A stretch of 64,000 nucleotides of DNA, from positions 62,001-126,000 of the forward strand of contig CABIKM010000015.1 of the NCBI GenBank assembly GCA_902196205.1. The letters run 5' to 3'. Shown here in pieces: positions 7,187-23,171 of the stretch. The first letter of the stretch is position 1. Each line of letters starts with the position of its first letter. Below the pieces are notes generated by a model. The model was not told where the DNA came from. It made no database searches and saw only the letters and a program-made list of their open reading frames with translations. Source of the stretch: Candidatus Methylomirabilis lanthanidiphila (GTDB lineage: Bacteria > Methylomirabilota > Methylomirabilia > Methylomirabilales > Methylomirabilaceae). A program made the translations under genes and the position numbers.

Positions 7187-8556
7187 AGCAGATCTGGGTG
7201 TGTATCTTAGTCTGGGCGTGCCTCGGGTCGGCTGTCGCGTTTGCGGACGACGCAGGAACAACGACTGCCGGCGAAAGGGAAGAGTGCCGGATCTGCGGCA
7301 TGTGGATCGATCAATACCAGCGAACCGCCGCCGAGCTGGTCTATAAAGACGGTCGAAAAGAACATACCTGCGGCGTGGTCTGTATGTTCCGAATCCTGGA
7401 GGATGAGGGTTTTGAGGCGTTCAGCGCCATTACGGTGCGCGACTTTGACTCGGGCGCCATCGTCGACGCCCGAGAAGCCGCTTATTCGATCGGCAGCCGG
7501 GTGATCCCCGATATGATTCCGAACATCATCGCCTTCAAGGACCGGGCCTCGGCAGAAGCGTTTCAGGCCAAAGAAGGGGGCGAAGTCATCGACTTTGAGA
7601 GAGGCCTGCAGATCATCACGCCGCGCGGCCAGACGGTGCCGTTCCGGCTGCAGACCGCCGTGACGACAGGCAAAGGATCGTTCGGGCTGGGTGCGGGGTT
7701 CGGATACCGGCGGAGGGATGACATCAAGCTCGGCTCGGACAGCCGCGATCCGCACACGTTTATCAAGAACCGACCCCAACAACCGCGCGCTCCCAGAAAG
7801 ATGGAATCGTACGGCCAATCGCTCTTTGTCAATTACGGCATCACCGACCGGCTGGCACTCCTGGCGAATCTGCCGTATTTCGAAAAAGAGACCAGTCGAT
7901 TCGAGAAGAATTTGCAGACGGGCCGAATCACGATCATAGACGCCGATGCTGCCGGATTGGGCGATCTCGATCTCCGCTTTCGCTACAACCTGTGGCGAAA
8001 TGCCGTTCAAAATACTTGGGTCACTGCGACGCTGACGACAACCATCCCAACCGGAAGATTTAATAAGGCGTTCGTCGACAGTCCCGCGCTGCAATCCGGG
8101 GCCGGCGCCCCATCGGTCGGGGGGGGCCTCCTTTTGTCATACAGTTGGCGAGACCTGTGGTTTCACTCCTCCGCGACGTATACCGGAAAACTGCGCAACG
8201 GCGATGAATACAGGTTCGGCAACGAAGCGGCAGCCGGCATCGCGCTCCACTACACGCCGCGGTATGATTATATGTTCGGGATCGAGGCGGACGCAATCCA
8301 TGCCGAAAAAAATGAGTTCAAAGGGGTAACCGTCGGCAACACCGGGGGGACCCGAGTCAATCTTACGTTTGTCGCCGACTGGAGATTTCTTCTCGCGCTG
8401 GGCGGGAATTTTACGCTGCGGGCCGCCATCGGGTTGCCGATTCATGAAGATCTGAACCGCCGCACGATCGGGCCGCGAGAGCAAGTCCAACTCGGCGGCG
8501 GATTCTTCGCGAACGCGGCGGTGACCTACGCCACCCGCTTCCCATTTTTTGAGTGA
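7183..8556 (+). CDS. NosL domain fused to an outer-membrane beta-barrel
   Basis: A 457-residue exported protein in two parts. After a signal peptide (1-21) comes a second NosL domain, residues about 30-150, with CRICGM (C35, C38, M40), HTCGVVCMF and FKDRASAEAFQAKEGG. Residues about 155-457 change to alternating amphipathic strands typical of the MetA/phenol-degradation-type transporter barrel (COG4313): TTGKGSFGLGAGFGYRRR, LGDLDLRFRYNLW, TTTIPTG, with a C-terminal aromatic end (RFPFFE). I am not aware of this fusion as a described architecture. The start overlaps nosL by 4 nt with GGGAGG upstream. It could deliver or accept copper at the outer membrane. Confidence 0.85.
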   Translation: MKQIWVCILVWACLGSAVAFADDAGTTTAGEREECRICGMWIDQYQRTAAELVYKDGRKEHTCGVVCMFRILEDEGFEAFSAITVRDFDSGAIVDAREAAYSIGSRVIPDMIPNIIAFKDRASAEAFQAKEGGEVIDFERGLQIITPRGQTVPFRLQTAVTTGKGSFGLGAGFGYRRRDDIKLGSDSRDPHTFIKNRPQQPRAPRKMESYGQSLFVNYGITDRLALLANLPYFEKETSRFEKNLQTGRITIIDADAAGLGDLDLRFRYNLWRNAVQNTWVTATLTTTIPTGRFNKAFVDSPALQSGAGAPSVGGGLLLSYSWRDLWFHSSATYTGKLRNGDEYRFGNEAAAGIALHYTPRYDYMFGIEADAIHAEKNEFKGVTVGNTGGTRVNLTFVADWRFLLALGGNFTLRAAIGLPIHEDLNRRTIGPREQVQLGGGFFANAAVTYATRFPFFE

Positions 8557-8780
8557 TACGACGATCGGGACAACAAGAGATCGAATAGCCCGACCCATGT
8601 CCTATTGTGCCTTCCGGATCTTCGCGCAGCACAGGTTCCGGGTGCGCAACCTGACGGGAATCCTACCGGACCCGGGCTCTTGCCCGTTCGGGCTTAGACA
8701 CCGGCAGTAAGCTGGATGCGCATCACGACCGCATTGCCTGAGGACAATGCACACTTCTTCGTCGCCCGGCAGGAGCTGCT

Positions 8781-9449
8781 ATGGCTCCCAATCCTAAAAC
8801 CGAACCCTTCATTCTTCACCACCGCCGCTACGACGACTGGTTCGAACGCCATCGGGCCGCCTATCTGTCCGAACTGTTGGCCGTGCGGGCGTTGCTGCCG
8901 TGGGAGGGGCGGGGACTCGAAGTCGGTGTGGGAACGGGACGCTTCGCAGGCCCCTTGGGGGTTCAGCTTGGAATTGATCTCGCCGGTGAAACACTGAGCT
9001 ACGCCCGCGGACGCGGCGTGACCGTAGCGTGCGCGGTCGCTGAAGCGCTGCCCTTCGCAGATGCGGTCTTCGACTATGCGCTCGTGGTGACCACGATCTG
9101 CTTCGTTGACGATGCGCGCGCCATGCTGCGCGAGATCGCGCGTGTGCTGAGACCCGGAGGGACGATCGTTATCGGAATGATTGATCGCGAAGGCCCTCTC
9201 GGACACGATCATCTCACCCGCCGGGCAGAGAATGTCTTTTACCGCACAGCAACCTTCTACTCGGCGGCGGAGGTCGAGGCTCTCCTCACGGAGACCGGCT
9301 TTCGCCACTTCGTCTGGGTGCAGACTGTGTCCGCACCGCTTTCCGAGATCCATGAGATTGAGCCAATCCGCCCAGGCACGGGTCGGGGCGCCTTTCTCGT
9401 GGTCGGCGCACAGGCTTCGAGGGAACAAGGCGAGCGACGCGGGTCATGA
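8781..9449 (+). CDS. SAM-dependent methyltransferase (Methyltransf_11)
   Basis: A 222-residue class I methyltransferase. The SAM-binding motif I is GLEVGVGTGRFAGPLG (near residue 44), motif II gives GIDLA, and ALPFADAVFDYALVVTTICF and LREIARVLRPGGTIVIG match motifs post-II and III. Substrate is unknown. An AGGAG sits 6 nt before the ATG. It is separated by about 220 nt from the copper operon and by 260 nt from the exporter genes, so it probably has its own promoter. Confidence 0.88.
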   Translation: MAPNPKTEPFILHHRRYDDWFERHRAAYLSELLAVRALLPWEGRGLEVGVGTGRFAGPLGVQLGIDLAGETLSYARGRGVTVACAVAEALPFADAVFDYALVVTTICFVDDARAMLREIARVLRPGGTIVIGMIDREGPLGHDHLTRRAENVFYRTATFYSAAEVEALLTETGFRHFVWVQTVSAPLSEIHEIEPIRPGTGRGAFLVVGAQASREQGERRGS

Positions 9450-9551
9450 ATTCGACTTATGTAAATGCCGGCGCGCTTTACCTGATTTTATCGGTCACAA
9501 TTGGTCCGGCTGTTGTGCCCGGCGAAGTCGTTTCGTGAAAGTGGATCATCT

Positions 9552-9584
9552 CCTGCCGATTTCCTGGAACTTCTCATCCCCTTC
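9552..9584 (+). promoter_or_regulatory. Candidate ECF-sigma promoter block, copy 1
   Basis: A 33-nt block here and at 14401-14433 match at 30 of 33 positions and share TTTCCTGGAACTT. GGAAC (9566-9570) is a classic -35 for extracytoplasmic-function sigma factors. The two copies stand upstream of the transcription units that flank the ECF sigma gene at 12984. The -10 part is less clear. This copy lies 142 nt before the HlyD gene. Confidence 0.55.
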
Positions 9585-9711
9585 CTCGCTCTTCTAAAGG
9601 CTTTTCAGGGTGTAGTGTGGGCAGAGGTTCAGGTTTCCACACATCTGGGGTCAGTTACCCACACGATTTCCGGAAGCAACCTTCCCTTTTTCGTAGGGTG
9701 AGACTTCTGGA

Positions 9712-10935
9712 GTGAAAGCTGATACACTCTTTTTGACCATGGCTCGCAATCTAATACTCGCGAAGAGTTGGAACAGGTACGGCAAACGCCTGAGCCTCTG
9801 GATAGCCGCCCTCATGATGGTTCTGCTCGGACTGAGGCTGACCATGTTCGCTCCCTATCAGGTCAAGGCGACCGGCGTGACTCGCCACGATGTCCAGCAG
9901 GAAGCATTTGGCGTGGGGACGGTTGAGGCGAAGGTCATAGTCAGCGTCGGCAGCAAGATCATCGGGCGCGTGACGGCACTCAACGTCGATCAGGGGGACC
10001 GGGTTCGTGCAGGGCAACTCCTTGCCACCCTCGAAAACCAGGATTTCCAGGAACAGGTGTCCCAAGCGGCGCACGACCTCGAGCGCACGGCGGCCGACCT
10101 GGTGGCCAACGAAGCTGCAATCAGACAGGCCGAAGCCAACCGGGCGCTTGCCCAGAAGAACTACGAGCGGTACCGAAGCCTATTCCAGGAAGGGGCTGTG
10201 TCTCGCCTCGACTTCGAGCAAAAGGAGAACGAGCATGTCGCCGCGCGTGAAGCCGTTAACACACTCCTGGCCCAGCGAACGTCGATCGAGAAACAACAGA
10301 AGAAGGCAGCGGCAAACCTGAGTTTTGCGAAGGCCAAGCTAGCCGACACCATGGTGCATGCCTCCTGCGACGGGGTGGTGGTGACCCGCGAGGTCGAGGC
10401 GGGCGATGCCGTGGTTGCGGGAGCCCCCCTTTTCCGCATCGCCGACTGCCACACCATCTGGGTCCGGGCTCACGTCGATGAGACGGTCGCCGGCGCGATT
10501 CGCGTGGGCCAGCCGGCCCGGGTCATCCTGCGGTCCCATCCTGAGCAGAGCCTCCCAGGCCAGGTCGCCAGGGTGGAGGTCGAGAGCGATCGGGTGACCG
10601 AGGAGAGGGCGGTCAATGTGACTTTCCCCGTACCCTCCCCTATCCCGCCCATTGGAGAGCAAGCAGAGGTCTACATCGTCACAGGGCAGAAAGCTCAAGT
10701 CCCCGCGCTGCCGCAGAAGGCATTGGTCCCCATTGGGAAATCGTTCGGAGTCTGGCTTATCAAAGGTGACCGGGTTCACCTGCGCCAGGTGCAGGTCGGG
10801 ATCTCGGACCCCTCCGGCTGGATCGAAATTGTCGGCGGGTTGAACAGCACTGACCGGGTCGCTCTTGCCCCGCCGGAGATCATGTTGCGACTCAAGGACA
10901 ACGCTCGAGTCTCCGTAAGCGAGGCAAGGTCATGA
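9712..10935 (+). CDS. HlyD/MacA-type membrane fusion protein
   Basis: A 407-residue periplasmic adaptor. It has a membrane anchor (about residues 27-50), a lipoyl-like half (VGSKIIGRVTALNVDQGDRV), a long coiled-coil hairpin (residues about 105-200, with QAEANRALAQKNYERYRSLF), the second lipoyl half (ASCDGVVVTREVEAGD) and beta-barrel domains. Such adaptors link an inner-membrane ABC exporter to an outer-membrane channel. The downstream permease and ATPase make a DevBCA/MacAB-like set. The GTG start at 9712 is tentative; the ATG at 9739 is possible but lacks a binding site. Confidence 0.9.
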   Translation: MKADTLFLTMARNLILAKSWNRYGKRLSLWIAALMMVLLGLRLTMFAPYQVKATGVTRHDVQQEAFGVGTVEAKVIVSVGSKIIGRVTALNVDQGDRVRAGQLLATLENQDFQEQVSQAAHDLERTAADLVANEAAIRQAEANRALAQKNYERYRSLFQEGAVSRLDFEQKENEHVAAREAVNTLLAQRTSIEKQQKKAAANLSFAKAKLADTMVHASCDGVVVTREVEAGDAVVAGAPLFRIADCHTIWVRAHVDETVAGAIRVGQPARVILRSHPEQSLPGQVARVEVESDRVTEERAVNVTFPVPSPIPPIGEQAEVYIVTGQKAQVPALPQKALVPIGKSFGVWLIKGDRVHLRQVQVGISDPSGWIEIVGGLNSTDRVALAPPEIMLRLKDNARVSVSEARS

Positions 10936-15115: not shown

Positions 15116-16165
15116 ATGAGCAATCTTCTCACGCCTCTGTACGTCTTCGTCCTCTGGATCGACTTCGCCGGGTTTACAACGCTCATCGGCACTCTTGCTT
15201 TCCAATACCTGATCGTCCGACCGGTCTCACGATCCTCTCGGGATGTCGAGCCGGTTGAGCGACGGCTGCTGCAGGTAGAAGCCTGGGCGCTGGCGCTGGT
15301 TGCCATGGCAAGCCTACTGGAGTTGCTCCTGCGAGCGCTGGAGATGGGCGGCGGGGTCCTGAGCAACGTTGGTAATGCACTTCCATCTATACTGCTCGAG
15401 ACTCGCTACGGTACGATCTGGCTTGTTCGGATCGGACTTATTGGAGTGGTTGCCGTTGGTTGGCGGTTCTGGCCTGGGATCACCCTGTCCGCCGGCATCC
15501 GTCTGCTTGGAGCTGCCTCTATCGCCCTCACCCGAAGCCTGTCAGGTCATGCGGCAGACTGGGGAGATGTAACGCTCGCAGTCCTGATGGACTGGCTCCA
15601 TCTGCTCGCAATCTCCGTCTGGATTGGGGGGCTGCTCGTGATAGGATTTGTTTTACGCGCCGCGTTGACACCAACCAGCGACCAGGACGCCGCCCTAGGC
15701 TTTGCCTTGATCGCCAGACGATTCTCAATCCTGGCGACCGTCTGCGTTGCAGGTCTTCTCATAACGGGACTCCTCCACCCCCGGTTGCAGTTGATGTCCT
15801 TCTCGACCCTCTTCCGAATTCCTTACGGATGGACCCTGCTTACGAAACTTTCACTGCTCTTATTGATGCTGCTGCTTGCGGCCCTGAACCGCTACTATCT
15901 CCTTCCCAAACTGGGCCGAGGTGGGGATGGGCAAACCCGATTACTGGTTATAACCATTGGCCGGTTGGAGTGGCTGCTCGCCGTGCTTGTGCTGATTTCC
16001 AGTGCATTGCTCACTCAACTGACGCCCGCCCGCTCTATCCGCCGTCAGGAGCACCCACAGCCCCATGCCGTTCACCGGCCGGCAGCAGAAGAGGACCCCT
16101 CCAAGCACTTTGTGTTGCATCCGTTAGCAGGGGTGAACACGACAGTTCGACAGGAAGACGACTGA
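15116..16165 (+). CDS. copD: CopD-family copper resistance/uptake membrane protein
   Basis: A 349-residue inner-membrane protein with about eight hydrophobic helices. It matches the CopD domain: RSLSGHAADWGDVTLAVLMD followed by WLHLLAISVWIGGLLVIG, where the His residues are the family's conserved positions, then RFSILATVCVAGLLITG and a final helix. CopD works with the periplasmic protein CopC/YcnI to move copper through the inner membrane. A YcnI-like protein is encoded at 21763. The C-terminus has a His/Pro-rich tail (EHPQPHAVHRP). Confidence 0.88.
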   Translation: MSNLLTPLYVFVLWIDFAGFTTLIGTLAFQYLIVRPVSRSSRDVEPVERRLLQVEAWALALVAMASLLELLLRALEMGGGVLSNVGNALPSILLETRYGTIWLVRIGLIGVVAVGWRFWPGITLSAGIRLLGAASIALTRSLSGHAADWGDVTLAVLMDWLHLLAISVWIGGLLVIGFVLRAALTPTSDQDAALGFALIARRFSILATVCVAGLLITGLLHPRLQLMSFSTLFRIPYGWTLLTKLSLLLLMLLLAALNRYYLLPKLGRGGDGQTRLLVITIGRLEWLLAVLVLISSALLTQLTPARSIRRQEHPQPHAVHRPAAEEDPSKHFVLHPLAGVNTTVRQEDD

Positions 16166-16240: not shown

Positions 16241-16615
16241 ATGTTGCTCAGAAAGGGATTGGCACTCTGCATTGCAATCGCGGCTGTATTATTCCTTGGT
16301 AGCGTCGTCCCACCCGTCGAAGCCGGACAGGTCACCCTGCACGTAGTGGATGTCGACGCGCACGAGGGCATCCAAGTCTGGGTCCCCTCGTCGATTACTG
16401 CGAAGAAGGGTGATACCATAACGTTGATCCTCACGAACCACCTGATGGAGGAGCATGGGTATGAAATCGAGGCGTTTGGTGTGAAGGAGGTCATCGGCAA
16501 TCACCAGACCAAGACCGTTTCCTTCAAGGCCGCTAAAGCAGGGATCTTCCCGATCAAGTGTCAACTTCACAAGGCGGAAAACCATTACGCCGGGCAACTG
16601 GTAGTCATCGAGTAG
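16241..16615 (+). CDS. Nitrosocyanin-like cupredoxin
   Basis: A 124-residue exported cupredoxin. Signal peptide is residues 1-28. The mature part has the cupredoxin fold motifs, and its second half (IEAFGVKEVI, then KTVSF, then CQLH) closely resembles nitrosocyanin of ammonia oxidisers as I remember it. C107, H110 and H115 give the C-x2-H-x4-H spacing of nitrosocyanin rather than the C-x-H-x-M of type 1 blue copper. The residue aligned with its Glu ligand appears to be H72 (EEHGYE). Probably a periplasmic redox or catalytic copper protein. AAAGGAGGGG precedes the ATG. Confidence 0.85.
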   Translation: MLLRKGLALCIAIAAVLFLGSVVPPVEAGQVTLHVVDVDAHEGIQVWVPSSITAKKGDTITLILTNHLMEEHGYEIEAFGVKEVIGNHQTKTVSFKAAKAGIFPIKCQLHKAENHYAGQLVVIE

Positions 16616-16645: not shown

Positions 16646-16676
16646 CCGGCCTTGAGGGACGATCCCTCAAGGCCGG
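16646..16676 (+). terminator. Strong hairpin terminator after cupredoxin
   Basis: A perfect 14-bp inverted repeat (arms 16646-16659 and 16663-16676, CCGGCCTTGAGGGA) with a 3-nt loop, 30 nt after the cupredoxin stop. The following CTCTATT is only weakly T-rich. Confidence 0.8.
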
Positions 16677-16864: not shown

Positions 16865-17203
16865 TTGCATATGCCGCTCTTGAAGAGAACATCTTACAAG
16901 GCTTGGCCCCTTAGGTATCTTACCGCATCGGCAGTCGGTCTTTACCTGCTGGTCAATGCGTTCCTCATCCTGTGTCTGGCCCATCCTCACAATCCCCGTC
17001 TCCAAGGTCACACAGACAGTCACCCCGTCTCTGTCTGTGAGTGGGTGTACAAGACCGTGTCCTCCCATATGCCGTCGTCGGGAGTCACCCTCCCTCTGGT
17101 TGCGGTTGTACTGCCGGCGTTTCTATTGTTGCCACGGTGGCGTCCCGAGACGTACCTCATCAGGCTAAGCGGCCGTTCCCCTCCTCTGCCCATCCTCCTC
17201 TAA
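16865..17203 (+). CDS. His/Cys-loop two-helix membrane protein, copy A
   Basis: A 112-residue protein with a helix near residues 18-38 (TASAVGLYLLVNAFLILCLA), a His-rich loop (HPHN, then GHTDSHP, VCEWV, SSHMPSSG) and a second helix near 76-92. The copy at 18316 shares the helix, HPHN, TDSHP, C, SH and PSSGV positions, so these are under selection. Two His clusters and one Cys suggest metal binding on the outer face. I know no family for it. The TTG at 16865 has AGGGAG 8 nt upstream; ATG 16871 is the alternative. Confidence 0.72.
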   Translation: MHMPLLKRTSYKAWPLRYLTASAVGLYLLVNAFLILCLAHPHNPRLQGHTDSHPVSVCEWVYKTVSSHMPSSGVTLPLVAVVLPAFLLLPRWRPETYLIRLSGRSPPLPILL

Positions 17204-17415
17204 GTCTTATCACTCAAGCACCCGACTACCAGACATCACAGCATTAGAATTATCTCATTTGAGCAATGGCGTCTGAGCCTTTCACAAGGCTCGGGCATAG
17301 TCTACAGCGAATCAATCGTCGCGCCGTCGGCGCCACGCGAGGCTTGCCTCAGCGCCACGATAGCCCTGCTCACTCTCCTCCCATGTGGATAGGACGAGGG
17401 AACTGGAGGTGTCAT
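17204..17415 (+). promoter_or_regulatory. Conserved spacer of duplicated module A with hairpin
   Basis: This spacer resembles 18667-18889 in layout: an ATTATCTC start, a short hairpin (here GAGCCTT/AAGGCTC at 17275-17292) and a final GGAACTGGAGG just before a GTG start. It may hold an attenuator or leader for the second gene of the module. Confidence 0.45.
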
Positions 17416-17709
17416 GTGAACACACACGTCGAAAGATCGCGCCGGACCAGGGGTCAACGCATGATCAACGGGAAGATGGCTCGCCCGTCGCGGGACTACT
17501 TCGGCGAAGCCCTCCGTATTCTGGACAACGATATGACGATTGAACCGCAGCGCGAGCACCTGGCAACGCTGTGGGGGGTGGTGGTCGGCCTGACTCGCAA
17601 GCTGACGCAGGTTGTTGTCGAGTGCGAGGATGGTCGGTGCGCAACCACAGACACGCGCCACTCCGGCAAGACCGCGCAGGCATTCGGCGGTCCGAACAAA
17701 GCGCACTGA
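17416..17709 (+). CDS. Unrecognised small protein of duplicated module, copy A
   Basis: A 97-residue soluble, charged protein. The core YFGEALRILDNDMTIEPQ followed by REHLATLWGVVVGLTRKLTQ is nearly identical to the copy at 18890, while both ends differ. No signal peptide or membrane helix is seen; the core is likely two amphipathic helices. The GTG start is preceded by TGGAGGTG and matches the start of the second copy. Function unknown; always next to the His/Cys membrane protein here. Confidence 0.7.
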   Translation: MNTHVERSRRTRGQRMINGKMARPSRDYFGEALRILDNDMTIEPQREHLATLWGVVVGLTRKLTQVVVECEDGRCATTDTRHSGKTAQAFGGPNKAH

Positions 17710-18315: not shown

Positions 18316-18666
18316 ATGGACGGAGTCGTATCCGTGGCGCTTTCGACTGGATCATCTAACATACCCCGGCCTTTAAGGTCGCTCGCCGCATCGGCAGTCG
18401 GTCTTTACCTGCTGGTCAATGCGTTCCTCATCCTGTGTCTGGTTCATCCCCACAACACCCACCTCCAAGGCCAGACCGACAGTCATCCCGCTTCGGTCTG
18501 CGCCTGGGTCCACAAAACCGTTGCCTCTCATGTTCCATCGTCAGGGGTGAACCTCCCCCTGATTTCCGCAACACTGCTTGTCCTCCTGCCGTTGCCGCAG
18601 TACGCGGCCCGGCTCTCCTCCATCAGGCTCACCGGCCGCTCCCCACCCCTACTCGCCTTCGTATAA
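18316..18666 (+). CDS. His/Cys-loop two-helix membrane protein, copy B
   Basis: A 116-residue paralogue of the protein at 16865. The first helix (AASAVGLYLLVNAFLILCLV) is almost identical, followed by HPHN, QTDSHP, VCAWVHK, ASHVPSSGVNLPL and a second helix. The His and Cys positions are kept while linkers vary, which argues for a functional metal site. The N-terminus is unrelated to copy A and the ribosome binding site is weak, so the start at 18316 is uncertain. Confidence 0.72.
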   Translation: MDGVVSVALSTGSSNIPRPLRSLAASAVGLYLLVNAFLILCLVHPHNTHLQGQTDSHPASVCAWVHKTVASHVPSSGVNLPLISATLLVLLPLPQYAARLSSIRLTGRSPPLLAFV

Positions 18667-18889: not shown

Positions 18890-19177
18890 GTGAACAATAG
18901 CAATGCGCATGTCGCAAGATCGTATCGGACTATGAACCCACGTAGATTTTACAACAAAAAGGCCCACCCATCGCCAGACTACTTCGGTGAAGCGCTCCGC
19001 ATTCTCGATAATGACATGACGCTTGAGCCGCAGCGTGAGCACCTGGCGGCGCTGTGGGGGTTGGTGGTCGGCCTGACGCGCAAGCTTACGCAGGCTGTTG
19101 TCGAATGCCAGGATGATCGGTCTGCCACCGTCAGCACACACTGTCGCGTATCACAGATAAAAATAATCATTGAGTGA
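18890..19177 (+). CDS. Unrecognised small protein of duplicated module, copy B
   Basis: A 95-residue paralogue of the protein at 17416, identical at most positions from YFGEALRILDNDMTLEPQ to the VVEC motif, with unrelated N- and C-terminal tails. The GTG start has TGGAGG upstream, as in copy A. No domain recognised. The strongly kept central 45 residues compared with the drifting ends suggest a short functional core. Confidence 0.7.
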   Translation: MNNSNAHVARSYRTMNPRRFYNKKAHPSPDYFGEALRILDNDMTLEPQREHLAALWGLVVGLTRKLTQAVVECQDDRSATVSTHCRVSQIKIIIE

Positions 19178-19348: not shown

Positions 19349-19415
19349 GGCGCGCGTGTGGTGAGATGAGGGCATTGTGAGGCATGGCATATCTCAAAAG
19401 AGGGGGAGAACAACG

Positions 19416-21704
19416 ATGACGCAACGCGGACGCAACCGCAGGCACAAACGTACAGCAGCCCTCGTCGGGATGACGATGCTCCTGACATGGGCCACGCATG
19501 CTACGGCAGAGGAGGAAAAGAAGGAAGAGGTGACAACCCTCAAGGAGGTGATTGTCAGGTCTACCGCTATGAACGACGTCTTTGTGCCGTTGAATGCAAC
19601 CGTGATCGACGAGACACAGCGGCAGTCGCTGGCACCGGCCACCAACGACACGGCCAGCCTGTTGAGAGACATCCCAGGCGTCAGCCTCTACGGCGGCGGC
19701 GGTATTTCCAGCCTGCCGGCGATTCATGGCTTGGCCGATGACCGCCTGCGCATCAAGATCGATGGCATGGATCTGATCTCCGCCTGTCCTAACCACATGA
19801 CCCCGGCGCTTTCTTATGTCGATCCTTCCAACGTGGGAACCCTGAGGACGTTCGCCGGTATCGCACCCGTCAGCGTCGGCGGCGACAGCATCGGCGGTAC
19901 GATTCTTTTGGAATCTCCGGCGCCGGTGTTCGCCGCTCCAGGCCAAGCGCCGCTGTCCACCGGTCATCTCAGCTCGTTTTATCGCAGCAATAACCAAGCG
20001 CGCGGCGGCGACTATTCGGCCACCTTCGCGACCGACATTTTCAGCGCCACCTACAGCGGATCGGTCGTTCACGCCGACAACTATACCGCGGGCGGGAACT
20101 TCAAACCCGCCGGGCCGGCCGCTGTCGACAAGCCTGGGAACATTCTCGACGGCGATGAAGTGGGCTCCAGCTCTTATAAGGCCGAAAACCACAACCTGGC
20201 CTTTGCGCTGAAGCAAGGCAACCATTTGTTCGAAGCGAAATTAGGTTACCAATACATCCCGGAACAGGGCTTCCCCAATCAGCGCATGGATATCATCAGC
20301 AACACCCAGTGGCGGCAGAACCTGCGCTATCTCGGTCAGTTCGGGTGGGGCTCGCTGGAAGCCCGCGCCTATCATGAAACGGTCCGGCACGATATGGATT
20401 TCGGCGACGATAAACAGTTTCAATATGGCATAGCGCCGGGGATGCCGATGAACTCCGACAGCAGGAACCTCGGCGGGGTACTCAAGGCCAACATCGATCT
20501 GACCAAAGACCATACCGTCCGGGTCGGCGGCGAGTATCAGTATTACCGCCTGCACGACTGGTGGCCGCCGTCCCCCAGGGTCCTGCCGCCCGGCGTCATG
20601 ATGGGAGGCATGGCGCCGAACACGTTCGTGAATATCAACGACGGCACGCGCGAGCGAAAGGCGGTATTTGCCGAATGGGAGACGCGACTGCACCCGCAGT
20701 GGCTGACACTGCTGGGGGCACGCTACGAGCGGGTCGGGATGGATGCCGGCGATGTGCACGGCTACAATAACATGGACGAGTTTGCGGCAGATGTGTTTAA
20801 TGCCCGCAATCATGAACGCGACGACAACAACTGGGATCTTACTGCGCTTGCCCGCTATACGCCGACGCCGATGCTCAGCCTCGAATTCGGCTACGCGCAT
20901 AAGATGCGATCGCCGAATCTGTACGAACGGTACGCCTGGTCGACGAACTCCATGGCTATGGTAATGAATAACTTCGTCGGCGACGGCAACGGTTACGTCG
21001 GCAATCTGAATCTGGATCAGGAAAAAGCGCACACCTTGAGCGGGACCGTCGACTGGCATGCGGCCGACCGCAGTTGGGGATTCAAGGTTACGCCATACTA
21101 TACCCATGTCACCGACTATATCGATGCACGACGCTGCCTGCAGAGCGGAATGAACGTGACCTGCGGGGTGCCGGTGAGTAATACCCCTTCAGACAAGTTT
21201 GTCCTTCTCCAGTACGTGAACCAGACGGCCCGGCTCTGGGGTGTCGACGTCTCCGGCCATCTGCCGTTGGCACAAATCGACGGCGTCGGCGAATTCAACC
21301 TCGCAGGGCTGTTCAACTACACGAACGGTAAGAACCGCACCACGGGCGACGACCTGTACAACATCATGCCGATGAACGGCAAGCTGGCGCTGAGACACAC
21401 ACTTGGCGGTTTCGACAGCAGCGTCGAGGTGATCATGGCGAAGGGAAAGAACAATATCTCTGACGTGCGGAACGAAATTAAGACGTCGGGCTATATCCTG
21501 GCCAATCTGCGCGCCGGCTACAACTGGAAGACGATGCGGCTCGATTTCGGTATCGACAACGTATTCGATAAATATTACTCCCTGCCGCTGGGCGGCGCCT
21601 ATACCGGTCAGGGCATGACGATGGGCCTCAACTCAATACCGTGGGGGACGGCCGTCCCCGGTATGGGACGTTCGTACAACACCAGACTGACCTACAGATT
21701 CTGA
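19416..21704 (+). CDS. oprC: TonB-dependent copper receptor (OprC/NosA type)
   Basis: A 762-residue outer-membrane receptor. After a signal peptide (to about residue 31) comes the plug domain (VIDETQRQSL, DIPGVSLYGGGGIS, GHSIGG-like GGDSIGGTI), then a 22-strand barrel ending in TRLTYRF. It carries both copper-binding motifs known from Pseudomonas OprC: CxxxM (C124-PNH-M128) in the plug and HxM (H325-D-M327) in the barrel. The SPNLYERYAWSTNSMAMVMN region is also diagnostic of the copper receptor family. Expected role: TonB-powered copper uptake across the outer membrane. AGAGGGGGAG precedes the ATG. Confidence 0.95.
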   Translation: MTQRGRNRRHKRTAALVGMTMLLTWATHATAEEEKKEEVTTLKEVIVRSTAMNDVFVPLNATVIDETQRQSLAPATNDTASLLRDIPGVSLYGGGGISSLPAIHGLADDRLRIKIDGMDLISACPNHMTPALSYVDPSNVGTLRTFAGIAPVSVGGDSIGGTILLESPAPVFAAPGQAPLSTGHLSSFYRSNNQARGGDYSATFATDIFSATYSGSVVHADNYTAGGNFKPAGPAAVDKPGNILDGDEVGSSSYKAENHNLAFALKQGNHLFEAKLGYQYIPEQGFPNQRMDIISNTQWRQNLRYLGQFGWGSLEARAYHETVRHDMDFGDDKQFQYGIAPGMPMNSDSRNLGGVLKANIDLTKDHTVRVGGEYQYYRLHDWWPPSPRVLPPGVMMGGMAPNTFVNINDGTRERKAVFAEWETRLHPQWLTLLGARYERVGMDAGDVHGYNNMDEFAADVFNARNHERDDNNWDLTALARYTPTPMLSLEFGYAHKMRSPNLYERYAWSTNSMAMVMNNFVGDGNGYVGNLNLDQEKAHTLSGTVDWHAADRSWGFKVTPYYTHVTDYIDARRCLQSGMNVTCGVPVSNTPSDKFVLLQYVNQTARLWGVDVSGHLPLAQIDGVGEFNLAGLFNYTNGKNRTTGDDLYNIMPMNGKLALRHTLGGFDSSVEVIMAKGKNNISDVRNEIKTSGYILANLRAGYNWKTMRLDFGIDNVFDKYYSLPLGGAYTGQGMTMGLNSIPWGTAVPGMGRSYNTRLTYRF

Positions 21705-22707: not shown

Positions 22708-22737
22708 TTGACATGTGAAAAATCTCCGTGGTAGAGT
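22708..22737 (+). promoter_or_regulatory. Promoter of first smbP gene
   Basis: TTGACA (22708-22713) and TAGAGT (22732-22737) with an 18-nt spacer. The whole stretch from TTGACA to TAGAGTTG is nearly identical at 23628-23657 before the second smbP gene, including GTGG/ATGG before the -10. Confidence 0.75.
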
Positions 22738-22835
22738 TGCCTCACTTCTGCGCAATGATGGCGTCAGGAGCTTCGAGGGAACGAACGCGCGCGTCGGTAA
22801 GGGAGTGGGCAACTTATCACGAGGAGGAAGGCAAG

Positions 22836-23171
22836 ATGAGGCGGAGGCTTGCAGCAGCAGTACTGGTCCTTGGGGTAATAACCTTCGCGGGTATGAGCGT
22901 GTCATGGGCTGAAAAGTCCCATCAGGTCCAGGCCATCGAGCGCACTCGGGCAGCCATCGCGGTAGGCAAGGAGGGGCACAAAGATGCGTTAGTAGAACTC
23001 GCGACGCAAGCTCTGCAGCATGCCGAGGCCGCCGAGAAGGCGAAGGCCAATCATATGGCTGCGGCTGTCAAGGGACTGATGGAAACCATTGAGCACGGCA
23101 AAGCGGGCCATGCCGATCTCGCCATCAAGGCCGCTGAAGGGGCGCTCGAGCACCTCAATGCCGCAAAGTAA
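22836..23171 (+). CDS. smbP: SmbP-like small metal-binding protein, copy 1
   Basis: A 111-residue exported protein: signal peptide 1-25, then a helical His-repeat body with units such as HxxxxxGHKDALVELATQAL and HGKAGHADLAIKAA. This periodic His pattern is that of SmbP, the small copper-binding periplasmic protein first described in Nitrosomonas. Role: buffering copper and other divalent metals in the periplasm. GAGGAGG precedes ATG 22836; the frame is open from 22728 but the signal peptide fixes this start. Paralogue at 23754. Confidence 0.88.
   Translation: MRRRLAAAVLVLGVITFAGMSVSWAEKSHQVQAIERTRAAIAVGKEGHKDALVELATQALQHAEAAEKAKANHMAAAVKGLMETIEHGKAGHADLAIKAAEGALEHLNAAK

Follow-up and report, generated by a model that had tools for sequence, protein, structure and literature searches.

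One gene of the window (the whole 64,000-nucleotide stretch of DNA analysed here) encodes, judging from its sequence, an exported cupredoxin that is a member of a subfamily homologous to nitrosocyanin, not nitrosocyanin proper (Table 1). Its copper site is predicted to be made of one cysteine and three histidines, a set seen so far mainly in blue copper proteins that were mutated in the laboratory. On balance, we favour the view that it is a periplasmic, mononuclear Cys-His3 copper protein, likely an electron carrier that serves c-type cytochromes. The equatorial metal ligands of a cupredoxin are one Cys and two His, and the properties of the site are tuned by a weakly bound axial residue, usually Met. 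Nitrosocyanin is red, has a type-2-like EPR signal and forms a trimer. Its site is His2CysGlu (PMC9241007), and as of 2014 no other red (T2) cupredoxin had been studied in detail (PMC4059628).

Table 1. Features of the gene, its putative copper ligands and its neighbours (positions in the window).
Feature	Position	Strand	Basis or remark
Cys-His3 cupredoxin gene, nitrosocyanin-related, 124 aa	16241..16615	+	PF13473, phmmer, TIGR03096, alignment, fold model
Probable Sec signal peptide, residues 1-28	16241..16324	+	Arg-Lys, hydrophobic core, VEA before G29; read from the sequence
His72, predicted first ligand (CAT codon); column of nitrosocyanin's Glu ligand	16454..16456	+	Pairwise, multiple and profile-profile alignments
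Cys107, predicted thiolate ligand	16559..16561	+	Invariant in alignment
His110, predicted second His ligand	16568..16570	+	Invariant within His and Glu groups
His115, predicted axial-position ligand (where classical blue copper proteins have Met)	16583..16585	+	Invariant within His and Glu groups
Terminator-like hairpin just 3' of the cupredoxin gene	16646..16676	+	14 pairs; shuffled sequence contains sites of this kind at least as often
CopD-family membrane protein, 75 bp upstream of the cupredoxin	15116..16165	+	Family search, locus comparison
TonB-dependent receptor	19377-21704		Likeness to copper receptors, below cut-off
SMBP-family small metal-binding protein (PF16785)	22728-23171		Closely follows the TonB-dependent receptor and an exported 289-aa protein

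The ATG start of the gene sits after a ribosome-binding-like stretch, AAAGGAGGGG, and the product has a single Pfam domain, Cupredoxin_1 (PF13473; 41.6 bits, E = 1.3e-10, above the gathering score of 27 bits). The C-x2-H-x4-H spacing and the EAFGVKEVI segment, from which the earlier note proposed a nitrosocyanin-like protein, are both present, the former as C107-Q-L-H110-K-A-E-N-H115. When the PDB is searched with phmmer, nitrosocyanin comes first (E = 1.2e-15), ahead of a Bacillus anthracis Cupredoxin_1 protein (3.4e-5) and NosZ (1.3e-4). The NCBIfam model of nitrosocyanin, TIGR03096, matches with E = 2.3e-19, and a profile-profile comparison of the NC10 rows with the nitrosocyanin-type rows gives E = 6.8e-29. 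By these scores, the likeness is far above chance.

The protein shares with nitrosocyanin (PDB 1IBY/1IBZ/1IC0) the cupredoxin fold, export, and the Cys, the His and the axial-position His in the same columns. Its C-terminal 77 residues align with 1iby without gaps, and C107, H110 and H115 supply the Cys and two His ligands of the C-x2-H-x4-H arrangement. The differences lie in the Glu ligand, which is His72 here, and in the region before the core strands, which is longer in nitrosocyanin; this extension is absent from the window's protein and from all NC10 rows. Nitrosocyanin is known from ammonia oxidisers, whereas the type described here is found in NC10. Since the TIGR03096 score (69.5 bits) is about half of the equivalog cut-off (142.85 bits), the Glu is absent, and the N-terminus is some 16 residues shorter, we do not class the protein as nitrosocyanin itself. 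The resemblance proposed in the earlier note thus holds for sequence and fold, and does not extend to identity.

The assignment of the first ligand is consistent across methods. The phmmer alignment places EEHGYEIEAFGV on ISEGFSIDAFGV without a gap, with H72 opposite the Glu of nitrosocyanin, and the multiple (38-row) and profile-profile alignments give the same gap-free result. None of the 19 aligned homologues from NC10 (Methylomirabilota) departs from H72, C107, H110 and H115. With one Armatimonadota sequence added, the His group reads H-C-H-H in 20 of 20 rows; the nitrosocyanin-type group reads E-C-H-H in 18 of 18, and the other cupredoxins aligned have His at the first position (15 of 15 rows). 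Ligands that are invariant in the NC10 homologues, against Glu throughout the nitrosocyanin-type rows, argue for a homologous subfamily rather than an isolated substitution. The His at the Glu position and the resulting Cys/His3 set, both put forward in the earlier note, are therefore borne out at the level of sequence and model. Its alternative, a Glu (E70 or E71) in the ligand position, is disfavoured, and we rejected E71 as the ligand: most NC10 rows have E at position 71, but those of family f4 have V and L086 has D. One homologue (L021, in genome G078) was excluded from the ligand counts because its reading frame ends before the Cys ligand; the stop, just ahead of this residue, may reflect a frameshift, an assembly fault or decay.

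An AlphaFold2 model built from the 38-row alignment has a pLDDT of 96.2 and a pTM of 0.85, and the four conserved candidate ligands sit in this confident cupredoxin model. With Foldseek and with VIA-align 2, nitrosocyanin is the top match (1ibz_A, Z 18.9 and rmsd 1.1 over 94 residues), followed by 4hcf (Z 15.6) and then by nitrite reductase and CuA domains. A grouping with plastocyanins, which would have spoken against the earlier note, was not seen, and we rejected an ordinary plastocyanin or pseudoazurin because sequence and fold are both closer to nitrosocyanin. The B. anthracis protein (PDB 4HCF/4HCI), second in fold, shares the first-ligand His and C-x2-H, but its identity is 25% and its axial position lacks a His in the aligned part. 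The CuA domains of NosZ and COX2 are related cupredoxin domains with the same first His; they have two Cys (C-x3-C) and two Cu, whereas the loop found here, C-x2-H-x4-H, has a single Cys. Classical blue copper proteins (plastocyanin, azurin, pseudoazurin) have an axial Met in place of His115. The predicted Cys-His3 set is that of the Met121His mutant of azurin (type-1.5 copper), which was engineered in the laboratory, whereas the present family is natural and conserved. A passage of PMC4059628 states that a blue site can become green when its Met is replaced and cites Met121His azurin as type 1.5 (its reference 20); the Met-to-His site is mentioned there only as engineered azurin.

These comparisons suggest how the protein could work. 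Copper would be held by Cys107, His72, His110 and His115 in the cupredoxin fold, so that the usual equatorial His would be combined with the axial-position His of nitrosocyanin, as in azurin Met121His. This pairing would make a mononuclear redox site with a lowered potential: by analogy with the azurin mutant, His in place of the axial Met should strengthen axial ligation and lower the reduction potential, and the colour of Cu(II) should shift from blue towards green or red. The case for electron transfer comes from a neighbour, a di-haem cytochrome c that contains two Cytochrom_C domains. Of the 18 NC10 loci outside Methylomirabilis, 17 have it next to the cupredoxin; in the remaining one (L017) the contig ends on that side, about 190 bases past the cupredoxin gene. 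Single electrons would most likely be shuttled to or from such c-type cytochromes. In the window's genome, the protein closest to this di-haem cytochrome (41%) is encoded on a separate contig, next to genes for COX2 and COX1, which places this cytochrome family with respiratory chains. At one NC10 locus (L143 of CSP1-5, 7749-10543), a multicopper-type protein, a ZIP-like transporter and a second cupredoxin (CTTHQPSM) are encoded near the His3 cupredoxin.

We found a close homologue in 21 of 95 genomes of the NC10 phylum: 3 of the 15 Methylomirabilis, 2 of family f3, 4 of family f4, 1 of genus g21, and 11 further Rokubacteria-type genomes (f7). The gene is absent from the other 12 Methylomirabilis, including the complete, single-contig genome G024, and since only three carry it, it appears dispensable in this genus. 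When 84,980 species were scanned with a pair of conserved motifs, narrow enough that other phyla may also have the gene, the hits were NC10, one Nitrosomonas, one Armatimonadota and one further bacterium. Among 388 genomes around that of the window, no His-type close relative was found outside NC10 at ≤1e-12 except NosZ-like or other cupredoxin domains, and the five matches from a plasmid search were weak, three carrying the annotation nosZ. The window's genome, that of a Methylomirabilis from the methane-oxidising NC10 group, has the pMMO/AMO subunit A family; a general link with AMO/pMMO was rejected because PF02461 occurs in only 1 of the 18 NC10 carriers outside Methylomirabilis.

Glu-type nitrosocyanin proteins were observed in Armatimonadota and in a phylum of five genomes (G807); the loci are L046 7830-8240, L048 7788-8240, L080-L085, L087 and L130. 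PF02461 (AmoA/PmoA) was not found in these genomes, which are drafts, so the absence of AMO is provisional. At one G807 locus (L145, 6643-9175) the nitrosocyanin gene directly precedes a SCO1/SenC gene, and a gene for a c-type cytochrome lies upstream. The nitrosocyanin gene has been described as conspicuously absent outside ammonia oxidisers (PMC3772326). We found no link between nitrosocyanin and Armatimonadota in the open-licence literature, nor a mention of nitrosocyanin in the open-licence papers listed for NC10 or Rokubacteria, both weak evidence of absence.

The main rival to the electron-carrier reading is a copper-carrier role in Methylomirabilis, where the di-haem cytochrome c is not adjacent and CopD is found instead. 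There, the protein could be a periplasmic carrier that works with CopD and replaces CopC, its site storing or handing over copper. The CopD gene lies immediately upstream in all three cupredoxin-bearing genomes, which are also the only ones with the closest CopD orthologs (68%), and in the window it belongs to a stretch of copper and metal genes (TonB-dependent receptor, HMA-like protein, SMBP, NosL, ZIP proteins) that suits copper carriage equally. Yet CopD-family genes occur in all 15 Methylomirabilis genomes, with or without the cupredoxin, and the other NC10 members are accompanied by the cytochrome. A rigid cupredoxin fold with a four-ligand Cys-His3 site is also better suited to redox chemistry than to the quick release of copper. 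We regard the carrier role as the less likely of the two. The same stretch encodes two paralogous small membrane-like proteins lacking Pfam matches (16865-17203 and 18316-18666), with relatives beside the cupredoxin in both other cupredoxin-bearing Methylomirabilis genomes, and two short ORFs (17266-17709 and 18890-19177) that share the segment ALRILDNDM..EPQREHLA.LWG.VVGLTRKLTQ.VVEC. The exported 289-aa protein near SMBP has no Pfam match.

Methylomirabilis is known for nitrite-dependent methane oxidation, a setting in which a red-copper enzyme or NO-binding protein could act on nitrogen oxides. The homology with nitrosocyanin, whose own role is unsettled and which has been discussed for both catalysis and electron transfer (PMC3772326), points in the same direction. 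Such a function nevertheless seems very improbable, given the gene's absence from most Methylomirabilis and that of PF02461 from 17 of the 18 other NC10 carriers; moreover, His in place of Glu should give a site filled by four strong ligands. The protein might also be an ordinary type-1 blue copper protein with a His2Cys site, His115 being unbound and the axial ligand distant or absent: H72, C107 and H110 form the standard equatorial set, axial ligands vary among cupredoxins, and loop lengths differ, most relatives having C-x2-H-x2-H rather than x4. We find this improbable because H115 is invariant in both loop lengths and matches a known ligand position of the homologous nitrosocyanin, which is also the nearest fold.

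In a 92-column tree that leaves out the ligand positions, the Glu proteins group as a single clade (97/96). The tree is compatible with a clade of the His3 group and with a His3-plus-Glu clade, and AU tests reject neither. As every outgroup cupredoxin compared has His at the first position, the Glu is probably derived and the His the older state; the earlier note was right to read a His there, but the novelty probably lies with the Glu. A stepwise path from a blue site, through an axial His, to an equatorial Glu is plausible. It is conceivable, and we propose it tentatively, that the NC10 family of natural Cys-His3 cupredoxins keeps the step between blue copper proteins and nitrosocyanin (axial Met to His, then equatorial His to Glu), and that it provides a type-1.5 site in nature, connected to a di-haem cytochrome c. 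A conserved natural family of this kind would allow the blue-green-red copper series to be studied without mutants, and the origin of nitrosocyanin's Glu ligand could then be tested by exchanging a single residue in natural relatives of both types.
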